The position numbers and the translations under genes were made by a program. DNA of 64,000 bases, taken from contig JACCGJ010013207.1 of NCBI GenBank assembly GCA_013407085.1, forward strand, positions 1 through 64,000, written 5' to 3'. Below are positions 5,871 through 63,978 of this stretch, piece after piece (within the stretch, counting starts at the first letter, position 1; every line of letters starts with the position of its first letter). The notes under the pieces were generated by a model that ran no database searches, was not told the origin of the DNA, and worked only from the letters and a program-made list of their open reading frames with translations. This DNA is from Atriophallophorus winterbourni (taxonomy: Eukaryota; Platyhelminthes; Trematoda; Plagiorchiida; Microphallidae).

Positions 5871-7600
5871 AATCCTGGTTGCTTCCTCATGTGGCATACT
5901 ATCCGTTTATCCATCGCGCAATGCATTGACCAAATTGTTTACGGCTATAGGTTGTGTATCCTCTATTCCGATTTACACAACATCTCACGTGGGAGGCTAC
6001 GGAGATAAACAGATTGAATCGCTTACTTCAAGGTGAATTTCACCTGATCAGTAAACTCAGGCATGCAAAATTTATCTGCGTGTCGTCTATTACTCCAGTG
6101 AATTACAGGTATATAATCCAATCGTGGTCGATAGGTTCTCCCCATCTCTAAATAATCAATGAAACACAGACATTTCTTGCCATTGAGTTACGTTTCATCA
6201 ACCAAAATATTGTGGAGATGCACAGAGTACTAGCGATGAGCGCTAACCACGAGCTTCCGGATGAGATGCAGAGCACCACCCACTACACACCTTAAGAGAT
6301 GGAAGCACCAAAACGTCCGTCGACGATAATCGTGAATTCGTAGTAATTCGGGTTTCTTGAGGATTTCATCGGAACGTTTCGAGCAAAAATATCCCTCGAA
6401 GCATGAGGAAATGGTCAATATCAAATGATATGAAAAACTTCAATGTCGGTCAAATGAGCCTTGTTTAAATCGTTCCGGTTGGCAAGAAATCGAATGACAA
6501 ATAAGATCGAAGTGACCACAGGATCAGACGTGTTTCAGCTAATAATGTGAATATATAATTTGCCAATATAAGATAGACATGCGCTTTGTTACTTGTTTTT
6601 GTGAGTGTAATGAACGCGTTTGACCAATCGGCTTTATCTTGAGTTGAGGGATTCGTCAAGAGAACGCGACTTGTTTGGATCGGACGACTTCATGGATAAG
6701 ACGAGACGCAATCTTTAAATGTCTGTGAAACGTGAGGGTAAAGGGATTAATGTTGCACCGATGTTCCAAATATATTGTAAGAGGTCACATGACACCCGTC
6801 GAACTGTATTGACCTGATGTAATCTTTTCCGGTTTGCCCCAACACTACGACAATACGAAAGTTAGAGCATTGTACGATCTACCCTTAATGATAGAATAAA
6901 GTTGCAGCTGTTTTATGCGATAACCGTTGATTACATCAAAAGGTAATAATGCCGAAATGAATGTTTTATTTTAAATTAAAAATGTGATGCGAATCAATTT
7001 GCGCAGGTCCGTTTTAAGCAAATATTTATTTTACGAAAAGATGCTTGCACCCTGGTCCGTTTGAGACTTGACATGGAAAAAGATGGAAACAGAGACGGAA
7101 TCAGGAAAATGAAGAAAAATTAAAGCAAAGCAATTAAATACCTACAGCATACTTACCCGTGATTATTCATGATCAACCTATTGAGAACAGAATTATGAAA
7201 ATGAAAATCTTAATCTGATTATCTCTAATATGACATCTGTCAAAATCTCAAAAAGATATAGTAATACATCGGGCATGTTATTTGTGTGTTGTTTATCTAT
7301 TATTTACAAACTTGGAAATTTTATTATAGAAAAAAACAGTAAGGGTAACTAAAACAGCATGATAAGTAAGTATATGGAATATAAACAATACCAACCGACT
7401 TCTAATAGGGAGAGTCACATATCATGTGGTTCGTCATGGATTTATCTAGTTTTGAAGTGAAAACAAAAACCGATTCCAAGCGTATGTTTTTTTTTAGGTA
7501 CGGCGTTTCAATTGACCCAAATTCTAACGAAGGAATGTTGGGACGAATATCAAATCGGGGTGGTGAATGACTTTGAGTGTTTGAATAAGATTCTCGAGAT
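5871..7600. other. No recognisable gene
   Basis: AT-rich spacer. Open frames are short and lack motifs. I found no RNA gene or tandem repeat. Confidence 0.4.
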
Positions 7601-8140: not shown

Positions 8141-8514
8141 TAATGGGAAAAGACGTTTATGTTCCCTAAAAACTCAATATCTTTGAAGATATTACGACTC
8201 TATATTGACACTATGTCAACATAGATTTGAATTATGTGGCGCGAAAAACATGATTATAATTTGATCATATTCGCTCTTTATTCTGATTGGTCCATCGAGT
8301 CTTTGACACGGTTTTAATGTGCTATTTTCCAAGGTCATTTCCTTTTACATTCTCAGCCTATATATATGGATGAGTAAACCATGTTTATTATTATTGGAAG
8401 TGAGCTGCCATACGAACTTCTCTGAAGCCTTGGTCTTTTCTCTCAATAATCGATTGGGCAATATTGTGGGAAGCATATCCGGTGCATTATTAGCTCCGTA
8501 TCAAGAACGTAACA
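8141..8514 (+). mobile_element. 5' LTR of gypsy-type element
   Basis: Bases 8141-8496 match 10923-11278 over 356 bp with about 10 substitutions (near 3 percent) and no indel. After 8496 this copy appears to lack about 37 bases present in the right LTR, then resumes with a similar end (...GAACGTAACA). A primer-binding-like TGGCGACGGG follows at 8518. It contains a TATATATA stretch that could be its promoter. Confidence 0.85.
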
Positions 8515-8547: not shown

Positions 8548-10902
8548 ATGGAACAATCCAAGATAGAAATTCTTTTGGAGCGACAAATGATGCTAATGGA
8601 ACTTCTTCTGCAGAAGCAAGTACCAATCACAGAACCTCGTGCTATTCCACCCTCTATTGATGGAATTGCGAACAGCATCGCAGAATTCTCCGATGATCCG
8701 GAAGCTAACGTCACATTTGAAACTTGGTTCAGGCGTTATGAAGATCTTTTCCGTGTTGATTTTTCAGCCCAAGATGATGCATGGAAAGTCCGGCTGCTGC
8801 TACGTAAACTTGGCCCAGCAGAGCTGGATAAGTACTGTAACCTGATCCTACCCAAAAATCCTCGGGATAGAACTTTTGATGAGACGATCAAGTCACTGAT
8901 TGAACTCTTCGGTGAGCATGTATCTCTATTCAACACTCGCTACAGGTGCCTCAAGCTGAAAATGAACGACACAGACGACTTCCTGACACACATGGGCATT
9001 GTCAATCGCGAATGCGAACGCTTCAAGTTACGGTCCCTCACAGACGATCAGTTCAAGTCCTTGATATTCATATGTAGCCTGGTATCTCCGCGTTTCGCTG
9101 ATATTCGAACGCGACTGCTCAACAAACTTGAGCAAGAACCCTCATTCACTCTCCCAGCCATTGGTGATGAATATCTACGACTGGTCCGTCTCCAAGAAGA
9201 TTCGGCAATGATTCAACATGGGAATCATGGCACCGACACCGTCTATGCCGTTCAGCAAAGCAATTGGCATTCGTCACAAGATTCCAGCGCAAAGAAGCCA
9301 CCGTCTTCATGTTGGCATTGCGGATCCTGGCACTACGCCCGATATTGTCCCTTCAAACAACACCGTTGCAGTCAGTGCAACGTCACAGGCCACAAAGAAG
9401 GATTCTGCAGATCCAGAACGAAACAACAAGTTTCGTCGAAACCAAAGATTTCGAAGCCCTTTTCAAAGCCGCAGCAAACCCAGCAAAGGTTTTCATCAGA
9501 TCAGCCAATCAATGCTGTGTGCAACCAAATCCAGTGCAGCAGTGCACCCTCTAACAGGATTGCAGCTATATCTACTGAGCAGTATGTACGCGATCAGTTG
9601 ACCACATCATTGCGAAACCTTCCCGTGACGGTCGCAGATATCAAGAGGACACTGAACGACGACGAGGTTCTCTCAGAAGCTATCAGGTATGTTCAATCTG
9701 GATGGCCTAGGCTAGCACCACAATTGAATGACAATCAACTGTTCCAAAGACGGGAATCCTTATCAATCGTGGATGACTGTCTCATGTTTGGTGCTCGAGT
9801 CGTTATTCCCGCTGCTTTGCGTCAACGGGTTATACGTCAATTTCATGCTGGACATCCGGGGCTCAATCGGATGAAAGCAATCGCCCGAAGTTTCGCCTAC
9901 TGGCCAGGGATGGACGCTGACATCACCGAGTTTGTCAGGCGCTGTACCAATTGTCAACAAGCGGCAAAACTTCCTGCTCACGCAACACCGGTTCCGTGGC
10001 CCCGACCTGACAAAGCATGGTCGCGTATCCACATTGACTTCGCCGGTCCACTCAACGGAACCACCTACTTAGTCTTGGTAGACGTTTATTCAAAATGGCC
10101 AGAAATCGTCTCGCTCTCTCCTGCCACAAGTTCGACCACAATCGGAGCACTCACTTCGCTATTCAGCCAACACGGAGTTCCCGACACCATTGTCTCAGAT
10201 AATGGATCCCAATTCACATCAGCTCATTTTGCCGAATTCTGCAAGAAGAATGCAATTGAGCATATCCGGACTCCAATCTACCATCCCCAATCGAACGGAC
10301 AAGCGGAGAGGTTTGTCGACACATTCAAAAGAGCAATGCTCAAGTCTCGAGGGGAGGGGACTACCGTCGACAACTTGCAACGATTCCTGTTAGTCTACCG
10401 GACGACCCCACACGAATCCCTGATGAATAGTCAAACGCCAGCAGAGGCACTTATGGGTAGAAAACTTCGTACAGTCAATAACGCAATGGTCCCGAAGCCA
10501 CCGCAACCTCAGGTTCATCAGCATCTTAGTCAAAGGAGCTTCAAAGTGGGATCCAGCATCTATGCTCGTGATTATCGACAACGAAGAAACCCATGGATCG
10601 AGGGCAAGGTTGTATGTCGGCGAGGTAGCGTCATGTTCGACATCCAAGTTGGAAACGACATTTGGATACGCCATCTCAATCAATTGAGACCAAGAGAAGG
10701 ACAGTCGCAGTTAAAACCTGCGGAACCAGTGAATCTTTCGTTGGATCTTCTATTTGATACCTTCCAGCTACCATTTCCTCCGGTTGAAATACCACCTGAA
10801 ATTATCGCTCCCGACCGCGCACTAGTACCCCGACGATGGACTAAGCGAAGACGCAAGACTGTCGTACCACTTCAAGTGAACCCCAAGCTCTGTCGGTACT
10901 GA
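8548..10902 (+). CDS. Gag-integrase fusion of a Ty3/gypsy-type retrotransposon (no RT)
   Basis: One uninterrupted 784-codon ORF. Residues about 1-240 resemble a gypsy Gag. Two zinc knuckles follow: the first has Cys255 and Cys258 (CX2CX3HX4C), the second is CX2CX4HX4C near residue 270. A basic, Gln/Ser-rich linker (about 285-340) leads straight into the spacer that normally lies after RNase H. The integrase zinc-binding region comes next (His433, His436, Cys466, Cys469). The catalytic core has Asp497, Asp551 and Glu587, with exactly 35 residues between the last two (DD35E). A C-terminal integrase tail follows. Protease, reverse transcriptase and RNase H are absent. Nucleic-acid binding and strand transfer could be retained, but the element would need RT supplied in trans. 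The ORF lies between LTRs and is followed by a polypurine tract. A large in-frame deletion is the likeliest origin. Confidence 0.9.
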   Translation: MEQSKIEILLERQMMLMELLLQKQVPITEPRAIPPSIDGIANSIAEFSDDPEANVTFETWFRRYEDLFRVDFSAQDDAWKVRLLLRKLGPAELDKYCNLILPKNPRDRTFDETIKSLIELFGEHVSLFNTRYRCLKLKMNDTDDFLTHMGIVNRECERFKLRSLTDDQFKSLIFICSLVSPRFADIRTRLLNKLEQEPSFTLPAIGDEYLRLVRLQEDSAMIQHGNHGTDTVYAVQQSNWHSSQDSSAKKPPSSCWHCGSWHYARYCPFKQHRCSQCNVTGHKEGFCRSRTKQQVSSKPKISKPFSKPQQTQQRFSSDQPINAVCNQIQCSSAPSNRIAAISTEQYVRDQLTTSLRNLPVTVADIKRTLNDDEVLSEAIRYVQSGWPRLAPQLNDNQLFQRRESLSIVDDCLMFGARVVIPAALRQRVIRQFHAGHPGLNRMKAIARSFAYWPGMDADITEFVRRCTNCQQAAKLPAHATPVPWPRPDKAWSRIHIDFAGPLNGTTYLVLVDVYSKWPEIVSLSPATSSTTIGALTSLFSQHGVPDTIVSDNGSQFTSAHFAEFCKKNAIEHIRTPIYHPQSNGQAERFVDTFKRAMLKSRGEGTTVDNLQRFLLVYRTTPHESLMNSQTPAEALMGRKLRTVNNAMVPKPPQPQVHQHLSQRSFKVGSSIYARDYRQRRNPWIEGKVVCRRGSVMFDIQVGNDIWIRHLNQLRPREGQSQLKPAEPVNLSLDLLFDTFQLPFPPVEIPPEIIAPDRALVPRRWTKRRRKTVVPLQVNPKLCRY

Positions 10903-10922: not shown

Positions 10923-11330
10923 TAATGGGAAAAGACGTTTATTTTCCCTAAAAACTAAATATCTTTGAAGATATTACGACTCTATATTGACACTATGTCA
11001 ACATAGATTTGAATTATTTGGCGCGAAAAACATGATTATATTTTGATCATATTCGCTCTTTATTCTGATTGGTCCATCGAGTCTTTGACACGGTTTTAAT
11101 GTGCTATTTTCCAAGGTCATTTCCTTTTACATTCTCAGCCTATATATATGGATGAGTAAACCATGTTTATTATTATTGGAAGTGAGCTCCCATACGAACT
11201 TCTCTGAAGCTTTGGTCTTCTCTCTCAATAGTCGGTTGGGCAATATTGTGGAAAGCATATCCGGTGCATTATTAGCTCGATGACAAATCTAGCCGGATTT
11301 TAGGTAGCAGGAAAACGTTCAACAGAACCA
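10923..11330 (+). mobile_element. 3' LTR of gypsy-type element
   Basis: It matches the left LTR over its first 356 bp, then continues with the 54-bp block (11275-11328) that is also found in front of the left LTR, ending ...GAACCA. If this is the full form, the LTR is about 408 bp and the left LTR has an internal deletion near its end. Confidence 0.85.
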
Positions 11331-16428: not shown

Positions 16429-18511
16429 ATCTATACCTGAGGTCCACCTGTCCAAAGATAATTGCGTTCACCCACCAATCCCACAACACAAGAGAAGCTG
16501 ATTGGTCAAAGGCGTTTATTACGCTTCATCCCTGAGGTCAACCTGTCCAACGCTAATCGCGTTGACCCACGAATCCTACAACACAAGAGAAGCTGATTGG
16601 TCAAAGGCGTTTATTACGCTTCATCCCTGAGGTCAAGCTGACCAACGCTAATCGCGTTCACCCACGAATCCCACCACACAAGAGAAGCTGATTGGCCAAA
16701 GGCGTTTATTACGCTTCATCCCTGAGGTCAACCTGTCCAACGCTAATCGCGTTCACCCACGAATCCCACAACACAAGAGAAGCTGATTGGTCAAAGGCGT
16801 TTATTACGCTTCATCCCTGAGGTCAACCTGTCGAACGCTAATCGCGTTCACTCACGAATCCCACAGCACAAGGAAAGCCGATTGGTCAAAGGCGTTTATT
16901 ACGCTTCATCCCTGAGGTCAACCTGTCCAACGCTAATCGCGTTCACCCACGAATCCCACAACACAAGAGAAGCTGATTGGTCAAAGGCGTTTATTACGCT
17001 TCATCCCTGAGGTCAACCTGTCCAACGCTAATCGCGTTCACCCACCAATCCCACAACACAAGAGAAGCTGATTGGTCAAGGAGTTTATTACGCTTCATCC
17101 CTGAGGTCAACCTGTCCAACGCTAATCGCGTTCACCCACCAATCCCACAACACAAGAGAAGGTGATTGTTCAATGGCGTTTGTTACGCTTGATCCCTGAG
17201 GTCAACCTGTCCAACGCTAATCGCGTTCACCCACCAATCCCACAACACAAGAGAAGCTGATTGGTCAAAGGCGTTTATTACGCTTTATCCCTGAGGTCAA
17301 CCTGTCCAACGCTAATCGCGTTCACCCACCAATCCCACAACACAAGAGAAGCTGATTGGTCAAGCAGTTTATTACGCTTCATCCCTGAGGTCAACCTGTC
17401 CAACGCTAATCGCGTTCACCCACCAATCCACCCACAACACAAGAGAAGCTGATTGGTCAAGGAGTTTATTACACTTCATCCCTGAGGTCAACCTGTTCAA
17501 CGCTAATCGCGTTCACCCACCAATCCCACAACACAAGAGAAGCTGATTGGTCAAAGGCGTTTATTACGCTTCATCCCTGAGGTCAACCTGTCCAACGCTA
17601 ATCGCGTTCACCCACCAATCCCACAACACAAGAGAAGGTGATTGGTCAAAGGCGTTTATTACGCTTCATCCCTGAGGTCAACCTGTCCAACGCTAATCGC
17701 GTTCACCCACCAATCCCACAACACAAGAGAAGCTGATTGGTCAAAGGCGTTTATTACGCTTCATCCCTGAGGTCAACCTGTCAAACGCTAATCGCGTTCA
17801 CCCACCAATCCCACTACACAAGAGAAGCTGATTGGTCAAAAGCGTTTATTACGCTTCATCCCTGAGGTCAACTTGTCCAACGCTAATCGCGTTCACCCAC
17901 CAATCCCACAACACAAGAGAAGCTGATTGGTCAAAGGCGTTTATTACGCTTCATCCCTGAGGTCAACCTGTCCAACGCTAATCGCGTTCACCCACCAATC
18001 CCACAACACAAGAGAAGCTGATTGGTCAAAGGCGTTTATTACGCTTCATCCCTGAGGTCAACCTGTCCAACGCTAATCGCGTTCACCCACCAATCCAACA
18101 ACACAAGAGAAGCTGATTGGTCAAAGGCGTTTATTACGCTTCATCCCTGAGGTCAACCTGTCCAACGCTAATCGCGTTCACCCACCAATCCCACAACACA
18201 AGAGAAGCTGATTGGTCAAAGGCGTTTATTACGCTTCATCCCTGAGGTCAACCTGTCCAACGCTAATCGCGTTCACCCACCAATCCCACAACACAAGAGA
18301 AGCTGATTGGTCAAAGGCGTTTATTACGCTTCATCCCTGAGGTCAACCTGTCCAACGCTAATCGCGTTCACCCACCAATCCCACAATACAAGAGAAGCTG
18401 ATTGGTCAAAGGCGTTTATTACGCTTCATCCCTGAGGTCAACCTGTCCAACGCTAATCGCGTTCACCCACCAATCCTACAACCCAAGAGAAGCCGATTGG
18501 TCAAAGTTGTT
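16429..18511 (+). repeat. Satellite array, about 22 copies of a 95-bp unit
   Basis: The motif CTGAGGTCA recurs about every 95 bases, giving about 22 copies. Each unit holds GGCGTTTATTACGCTTCATC, CCAACGCTAATCGCGTTCAC and CACAAGAGAAGCTGATTGG. Copies 2-6 read CCCACGAATC at one site (copy 5 with one further change), while copy 1 and copies 7-22 read CCCACCAATC. A few units are 94 bp (GGAGTTTATTA), and one has a short insertion near 17430. Since 95 is not a multiple of 3, the short open frames here are not coding. The array ends about 400 bp before the promoter of the gene on its right. Confidence 0.95.
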
Positions 18512-18780
18512 TATTTCGCACAAGGCAAACACGAAAACACACGCCTATTTTATATAGGCAAAACAAACAACCACAACACTGATCGTCAAACATGCCTATC
18601 TCGGTTGTCACTTCGATTCGTTAGTCGATTTCGTACCCATCTGTACAATTCAAGCCCTCGGATGTTAAGTTTTGTATATCGTTCGAAATGCTGTGATCAG
18701 CACTCACCGCTAATGCACTGCGACCTCCACATGAGAAACTTGAACCATAACACAGCATATGCGACATGATATTGATTTAA
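18512..18780. repeat. Single-copy flank of the satellite, shared with 32460-32620
   Basis: Immediately after the last unit, sequence with the blocks ATAGGCAAA and CAACACTGA recurs in the same order after the lone unit-like segment at 32420. The satellite therefore seems to be an expanded inner part of a longer dispersed repeat. Confidence 0.55.
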
Positions 18781-18913
18781 GGTGCACATGTGAACTTTCA
18801 AAGCGGTGCACCGTACATCCAACGTTTGATATTTTCTCACTGCGGTTCATGCAACGAAAAACATCAATATTTTTTCAACCAATCATATGCAATGTGAGTA
18901 GATAGCTAACGGG

Positions 18914-18920
18914 TATAAAT
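18914..18920 (+). promoter_or_regulatory. TATA box of the micro-exon gene
   Basis: TATAAAT lies 45 bases before the start codon at 18959. If transcription starts about 30 bases downstream, the 5' leader is only about 15 bases, so the TATA box fits the ATG chosen. Confidence 0.6.
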
Positions 18921-18958
18921 GTTGCTAAAGATTTTGAGTGCACAAAATTATACACATT

Positions 18959-63978
<45,020 letters not shown>

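Follow-up and report, generated by a model that had tools for sequence, protein, structure and literature searches.

Micro-exon genes (MEGs) are hard to annotate owing to their tiny exons, and according to PMC4350168 they appear to be restricted to platyhelminths. For Schistosoma mansoni, the accessible part of PMC10526429 describes 35 MEGs with 10 to 20 exons of 6–81 nt, mostly multiples of three, with a signal peptide and with introns of 0.1–5 kb, the shorter ones lying towards the ends of the gene. According to a figure legend in the same source, the longest of 87 S. mansoni MEG proteins has 189 residues. Long flanking exons, a signal peptide in the 5′ exon and symmetric micro-exons (26/33) are reported in an excerpt of PMC4671649. 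The structural definition excerpted from PMC7653826 comprises at least seven exons, at least half of them shorter than 70 nt and a multiple of three in length, in runs of at least four. This source also lists wider sets of 109 MEGs in S. mansoni, 52 in Hymenolepis microstoma and 35 in Echinococcus multilocularis, and rates the curation of MEGs across flatworm lineages as a high priority.

As to their distribution, an excerpt of PMC8293314 states that MEGs seem confined to schistosomes; MEGs have been reported from tapeworms (PMC4413821, PMC7653826) and from Trichobilharzia (PMC5825161, PMC6362228). For flukes outside the schistosome family, we found no description of MEGs among the literature matches listed, and the accessible parts of PMC3534613, PMC7263636 and PMC6736295 contain nothing on MEGs of other flukes.

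Here we analysed a 64-kb stretch of DNA (the window), for which a sequence-only reading had claimed a 45-kb candidate MEG. Between 19 and 40 kb, the window carries a grid of exons with a common phase and a coding bias, behind a hydrophobic, signal-like start. Very probably this is a micro-exon gene of the MEG kind, and its owner a parasitic flatworm, most likely a non-Schistosoma digenean. By estimate, the gene would have about 23 exons (exon 1 plus about 22 up to 40.3 kb).

Start of the gene and listed micro-exons

The listed chain consists of exon 1 and 28 internal candidate exons. We refer to the 22 listed exons up to 40.3 kb (exons 2–23) as the core, and to those beyond as late. The features are:

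18,879–18,919, +, promoter-like CCAAT (18,879) and TATAAA (18,914), exact motif search
18,959–19,019, +, exon 1, coding part, 61 nt, predicted signal peptide, ends in phase 1
19,096–19,116, +, micro-exon 2, 21 nt, core, above intron-side cut-off
19,783–19,806, +, micro-exon 3, 24 nt, core, above intron-side cut-off
21,267–21,308, +, micro-exon 4, 42 nt, core list, below intron-side cut-off
21,981–22,010, +, micro-exon 5, 30 nt, core, above intron-side cut-off
23,124–23,144, +, micro-exon 6, 21 nt, core, above intron-side cut-off
24,896–24,913, +, micro-exon 7, 18 nt, core list, below intron-side cut-off
25,582–25,599, +, micro-exon 8, 18 nt, core, above intron-side cut-off
26,607–26,636, +, micro-exon 9, 30 nt, core, above intron-side cut-off
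27,556–27,579, +, micro-exon 10, 24 nt, core; an alternative 12-nt version ends at 27,567
28,295–28,321, +, micro-exon 11, 27 nt, core, above intron-side cut-off
30,390–30,407, +, micro-exon 12, 18 nt, core, above intron-side cut-off
31,179–31,214, +, micro-exon 13, 36 nt, core, above intron-side cut-off
31,978–31,995, +, micro-exon 14, 18 nt, core, weaker sites
33,108–33,122, +, micro-exon 15, 15 nt, core, above intron-side cut-off
33,243–33,269, +, micro-exon 16, 27 nt, core list, weak donor GTAATG, below both site-score cut-offs
35,471–35,500, +, micro-exon 17, 30 nt, core, above intron-side cut-off
35,750–35,758, +, micro-exon 18, 9 nt, core, above intron-side cut-off
36,372–36,395, +, micro-exon 19, 24 nt, core list, below intron-side cut-off
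38,312–38,323, +, micro-exon 20, 12 nt, core, above intron-side cut-off
38,910–38,939, +, micro-exon 21, 30 nt, core, above intron-side cut-off
39,478–39,492, +, micro-exon 22, 15 nt, core, above intron-side cut-off
40,249–40,263, +, micro-exon 23, 15 nt, core, above intron-side cut-off
45,358–45,381, +, micro-exon 24, 24 nt, late, probable
47,038–47,055, +, micro-exon 25, 18 nt, late, probable
47,967–47,987, +, micro-exon 26, 21 nt, late, probable
51,459–51,491, +, micro-exon 27, 33 nt, late, weak, below both site-score cut-offs
53,000–53,008, +, micro-exon 28, 9 nt, late, strong sites in a weak region
61,218–61,249, +, putative optional exon, 32 nt, GTTAGT donor, from a site pair
62,720–62,741, +, putative optional exon, 22 nt, from a site pair
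63,955–63,978, +, candidate exon 29, 24 nt, in a region without support of its own

At the start of the gene, both the TATA box and the 61-nt signal-peptide exon ending in phase 1 that had been claimed were recovered. TATAAA was accompanied by an upstream CCAAT, which we take to be promoter-like motifs, either of them singly being weak evidence. Exon 1 begins with the ATG at 18,959, has a hydrophobic core of 3.2 and ends at a GTGAGT donor. From the TATAAA to the ATG the distance is just 45 nt, which makes a short leader probable. Signal-like ORFs were frequent by our own criterion (32 on the forward and 54 on the reverse strand), six forward and four reverse ones having a phase-1 donor; the donor of exon 1, with a score of 10.5, was the strongest among those on the forward strand. 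As in the MEGs excerpted from PMC4671649, whose signal peptide lies mostly or wholly in the 5′ exon, the hydrophobic core is found within the 61-nt exon. Where that source describes a long 5′ flanking exon, this locus has a coding part of 61 nt and the probably short leader.

The 28 internal candidates have AG/GT borders on the forward strand and measure 9–42 nt, all divisible by three; they were picked for divisibility and openness, and their figures are not independent. None contained a stop in phase 1, compared with 15/28 in phase 0 and 12/28 in phase 2. The joined listed frame ran through 231 codons without a stop, the other two frames having 19 and 17. The claimed chain of short exons, symmetric and open across every junction, was thus reproduced, and its number, about 27, agrees with our own list. 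At the donors of the 29 exons, position +3 was A or G in 28, +4 was A in 28, +5 was G in 23 and +6 was T in 25. The first intron has 76 nt; of the 28 introns listed, 20 measure 0.5–2 kb, and the longest reaches 10.9 kb. At the far end, the two putative optional exons of 32 and 22 nt, if both were used, would preserve phase 1 and connect to candidate exon 29.

Several pairs were left out of the list. The pair at 42,500–42,528 (29 nt, strong sites) shifts the phase, and no partner was found for it; 46,862–46,867 lies beside a TATC array; and 41,896–41,910 and 42,127–42,153 belong to a stretch that by eye seems to derive from a transposon, though it was unmarked in the transposon comparison. The pairs 43,768–43,788 and 60,000–60,023 were also left out, as were 31,593–31,607 and 36,644–36,652, yet the last two score equal to listed exons and may be real. 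A pairwise comparison of the exon neighbourhoods gave only matches of 14–29 nt with E 0.002–0.03, barring overlaps of adjacent windows, which is no signal of exon duplication.

Micro-exon 4 raised the question of a second gene start. A signal-like ORF from the ATG at 21,182 extends in frame into this exon, which is the longest micro-exon listed and has one of the weaker acceptors. The window could accordingly hold two or more neighbouring MEGs, or one MEG with alternative first exons, and some S. mansoni chromosomes carry clusters of MEGs, as stated in PMC10526429. Signal-like ORFs, however, ran into pairs at the same rate on both strands (2/75 forward, 2/72 reverse), placing the second first exon at chance level, and a non-systematic look established no terminal exon with a stop between the listed exons. 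We regard more than one gene or gene start as unlikely and rejected the second first exon.

Unselected counts and codon bias

Since the listed exons were chosen for openness and divisibility, we used unselected counts of site pairs. The donor and acceptor matrices were our own, simple ones that follow the general splice-site consensus rather than training on this species. The whole-range count covered pairs of 6–75 nt in 18.9–64 kb, scored on intron letters only, with overlaps removed and a cut-off of 12. On the forward strand, 39 pairs were divisible by three, compared with 14 and 12 in the other two length classes, and on the reverse strand the classes were 16/12/19. In 100 dinucleotide shuffles, the mean number of pairs divisible by three was 19.0 and the maximum 30. 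Phase 1 was open in 31 of the 39 pairs, and phases 0 and 2 in 21 and 22; the shuffles had a mean of 9.1 and a maximum of 18 for phase 1.

Block counts were made for lengths up to 60 nt at a cut-off of 12, and are given in the order divisible by three/other two classes:

18.9–26.0 kb, +, 7/1/2
26.0–33.5 kb, +, 12/5/1
33.5–40.3 kb, +, 9/1/2
40.3–48.0 kb, +, 7/0/2; three of the seven are listed
48.0–54.0 kb, +, 5/2/1; one of the five is listed
54.0–64.0 kb, +, 0/3/1
1–16.4 kb, +, upstream control, 4/3/9

For 18.9–40.3 kb as a whole, the counts were 28/7/5 on the forward and 8/8/7 on the reverse strand, an excess of about 22. Raising the cut-off to 13 left 21/3/2, with 20 of the 21 open in phase 1, compared with 11 in phase 0 and 13 in phase 2. 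Seventeen of the 28 unselected core pairs were identical to listed exons, corresponding to 17 of the 22 listed core exons; the other five were below the intron-side cut-off or outscored by an alternative. The 11 unlisted core pairs include a shortened form of exon 10 as well as 36,644–36,652, a plausible candidate, and some of them may be real exons. The number of exons is therefore better supported than their exact set.

We also computed an unrestricted chain, allowing exons of any length and phase with a penalty of 12. It scored 103.5 on the forward and 29.0 on the reverse strand, and 60 shuffles gave a mean of 43.1 (sd 10.1) with a maximum of 75.1. As in MEGs, most micro-exons were symmetric, both in the unselected core count and in this chain, where 33/40 exons were divisible by three (5/25 on the reverse strand). 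Phase 1 held 26/40 of its exons and 14/40 were outside, asymmetric exons being used too; we think that the chain gains its phase shifts from asymmetric chance exons, which are free of cost.

Codon composition was determined for the 27 exons listed as far as 53.0 kb, after three bases had been trimmed off either border. Position 1 had 74% purine and 34% G, position 2 had 44% A, and position 3 had 36% T. Because openness alone depletes T at position 1, we compared the exons with shuffles kept open in phase 1. In the 22 listed core exons, the frequency of G at position 1 was 0.347, compared with 0.226 in the open shuffles (0/3000), and the mutual information 0.062 compared with 0.018 (p 0.0007). 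No such bias was found in 49 reverse-strand decoys (G at position 1, 0.224 vs. 0.234). A weaker one was found in 38 unselected open core pairs (G at position 1, 0.245 vs. 0.186, p 0.004; mutual information, p 0.056), which fits a set diluted by chance pairs. Among the late exons, which at five are too few to tell, no bias was significant (p 0.48 and 0.09).

These results bear on whether the exons are chance AG/GT pairs in AT-rich DNA. Short pairs are indeed frequent, the shuffles yielding 19 divisible by three at an equal cut-off, and the 54–64 kb block is at chance level. Against this, the excess is confined to one strand, one length class and one phase, and comes with a codon bias. Chance is contradicted for 19–40 kb as a whole and stands for individual late exons; as an account of the locus we consider it extremely improbable.

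As far as about 40.3 kb, a gene with about 22 internal exons, taken as a group, is well supported. Its reach to about 48.0 kb is probable, and to 53.0 kb doubtful. The claimed extent of 45 kb, with a last exon at 63,955–63,978, found no support in the 54–64 kb block, and with the support fading after 40.3 kb this gene end is not established. No 3′ terminal exon was found within the window. The reverse strand of 54–64 kb had an excess of pairs divisible by three (20/8/11 at a cut-off of 10, 6/2/3 at 12), possibly by chance, showing that counts in 10-kb blocks are noisy.

Transposons and repeats around the exons

Reverse-transcriptase pieces were found in at least three introns (23,696–24,310; 28,928–30,090; 57,403–58,712 and 61,946–62,229). 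The piece at 28,928–29,983, in the intron after exon 11, had 74% identity to Paragonimus westermani over 352 residues. This search scored the 7976 candidates with the most shared words and listed 120 matches, most of them without a name; Schistosoma was absent among the named ones. Two non-LTR retrotransposons, at 28,928–30,090 and about 54,500–58,712, were similar to the P. westermani reverse transcriptase (about 74% and 65%, respectively), and both sit between listed exons in gene orientation. A signal-like ORF at 23,333 resembles, by eye, a reverse-transcriptase remnant.

Upstream of the gene there is a Ty3/gypsy-type reading frame with an integrase (8,548–10,902). It is flanked by two mutually similar stretches (about 8,150–8,500 and 10,930–11,270), which by eye resemble terminal repeats. 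The best listed match of the integrase, at 70%, had no name; the named ones were Sparganum (68%), S. rodhaini (67%), S. turkestanicum (66%), Paragonimus (66%) and Dicrocoelium (59–60%), showing that the protein database is rich in Schistosoma. Judged by these transposons, which are weak taxonomic markers, the host is a flatworm, probably a digenean, and not evidently Schistosoma.

SM-alpha elements bear hammerheads. In the window, a hammerhead-like repeat lies between listed exons at 37,892–37,956 (RF02275, 21.1 bits with a gathering score of 52, E 0.005), and a second copy of 73% similarity, also between listed exons, at 49,207–49,352. At gathering scores, an Rfam scan of the whole window gave nothing.

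A 95-bp satellite with 21.9 copies occupies 16,436–18,519 and ends 395 nt before the TATA box; its consensus unit contains CCAAT and ATTGG motifs. Diverged copies of its flank were found at 32,464–32,595 and 6,465–6,644, suggesting that the satellite probably grew from a dispersed repeat. The interrupted TATC tetranucleotide array (46,382–46,857, about 120 copies), between listed exons, was the sole direct-repeat family of at least 60 nt. A transposon-rich locus of this kind fits the enrichment of transposons around MEGs, including SM-alpha, described in the accessible part of PMC8293314.

Predicted product and comparison with known micro-exon genes

The exon-joined translation was compared with 492 word-sharing candidates out of 5.8 billion proteins, exact 5-residue words being required; no relative reached E 10, and there was no Pfam or NCBIfam match. 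The six published S. mansoni MEG motifs, as coded here, were not found in the listed chain (0/6). Among these candidates and motifs, similarity to a named family (MEG-1 to MEG-32) was not seen. A foldase at E 0.4, the sole line from the PDB, was discarded as chance level. In their structure, the predicted exons fall within the definition excerpted from PMC7653826. The MEG-type architecture of the sequence-only reading is supported. Its attribution to schistosomes, though possible, is not supported, the intron reverse transcriptase being nearest to Paragonimus among the named matches and the gypsy integrase reaching at most 67% with listed Schistosoma copies.

Genes of other kinds also have many small symmetric exons, namely aphid-type bicycle genes, collagen-like repeats and VAL-6-like composites. 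Bicycle genes average about 17 exons, with tiny internal exons that start at codon position 2 (PMC9168663, excerpt), and the phase-1 borders of the internal exons here give the same start. VAL-6 is partly built like a MEG, according to the excerpt of PMC4350168. The intron reverse transcriptase, however, was nearest to flatworms among the named matches, not pointing to an insect genome, and the listed product has only four Cys in 231 residues (with 28 Lys), beside the CYC motifs of bicycle genes. Aphid bicycle genes carry a signal peptide. A Gly-X-Y repeat was not seen by eye in the translation, and a composite needs a conventional domain, of which there is none in the listed chain, itself lacking the 3′ end. 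Overall, we judge these other gene kinds improbable.

For the MEG-kind gene, we propose that a promoter with CCAAT and TATA boxes would drive the pre-mRNA, the first exon encoding a signal peptide and the coding body being cut into symmetric micro-exons with phase-1 borders. The exons would be spliced into a small secreted protein, incomplete at its 3′ end in the listed version. By analogy to schistosome MEGs, glands or tegument may release the product where parasite and host meet. Skipping of single exons could give in-frame variants: when the sequences were joined, 24/27 single skips left an open junction and 3/27 created a stop, and among all exon pairings 376/406 were open and 30/406 made a stop. 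The variability by skipping that had been claimed would be feasible in frame for most single skips, which would yield protein, but not for all. In S. mansoni meg-8.2, with 17 exons, a skipped exon was seen in only one of ten cDNA clones (PMC12998952, excerpt), and so the architecture by itself is no proof of much variation.

We conclude that this is very probably a real MEG-type gene of an already known class, with an exon number probably beyond the reviewed S. mansoni range. The exon grid was recoverable from bare genome sequence by tests of strand, phase and codon usage, without RNA. Should the DNA come from a non-Schistosoma fluke, to which the transposons point, large MEGs would be no speciality of schistosomes. 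More tentatively, a non-schistosome digenean may have an unusually large MEG of 23 to 29 or more exons, all in phase 1, convergent with bicycle cassettes. The shared phase-1 borders would then make the exons skippable, duplicable and shufflable behind one signal peptide. If true, the bicycle-like border phase would represent a convergent, phase-locked cassette design for fast-changing secreted proteins of parasites.

Compared with known systems, the locus resembles the aphid bicycle/megacycle genes in its many micro-exons and in having internal exons whose first base is codon position 2 (PMC9168663, excerpt). Those are insect genes with CYC motifs, and we found no evidence of common descent, leaving convergence at most. 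With the tapeworm MEGs of H. microstoma and E. multilocularis it shares the fit to the structural definition (PMC7653826, excerpt), whereas its intron reverse transcriptase points to a fluke. From the MEGs of Schistosoma and Trichobilharzia it differs by the absence of the six S. mansoni motifs and of a sequence relative, and by a 5′ exon that is not evidently long. It resembles them in the signal peptide of the 5′ exon, the run of symmetric micro-exons, the absence of a known domain, the transposon-rich long introns and the short first intron. Measured against the excerpted figures for S. mansoni (PMC10526429), the listed product is longer (231 codons vs. at most 189 residues) and the listed introns reach 10.9 kb vs. 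about 5 kb. The number of exons is probably higher (about 23 estimated and 29 listed, vs. 10–20), so that the larger exon number claimed for this gene is likely for its core.
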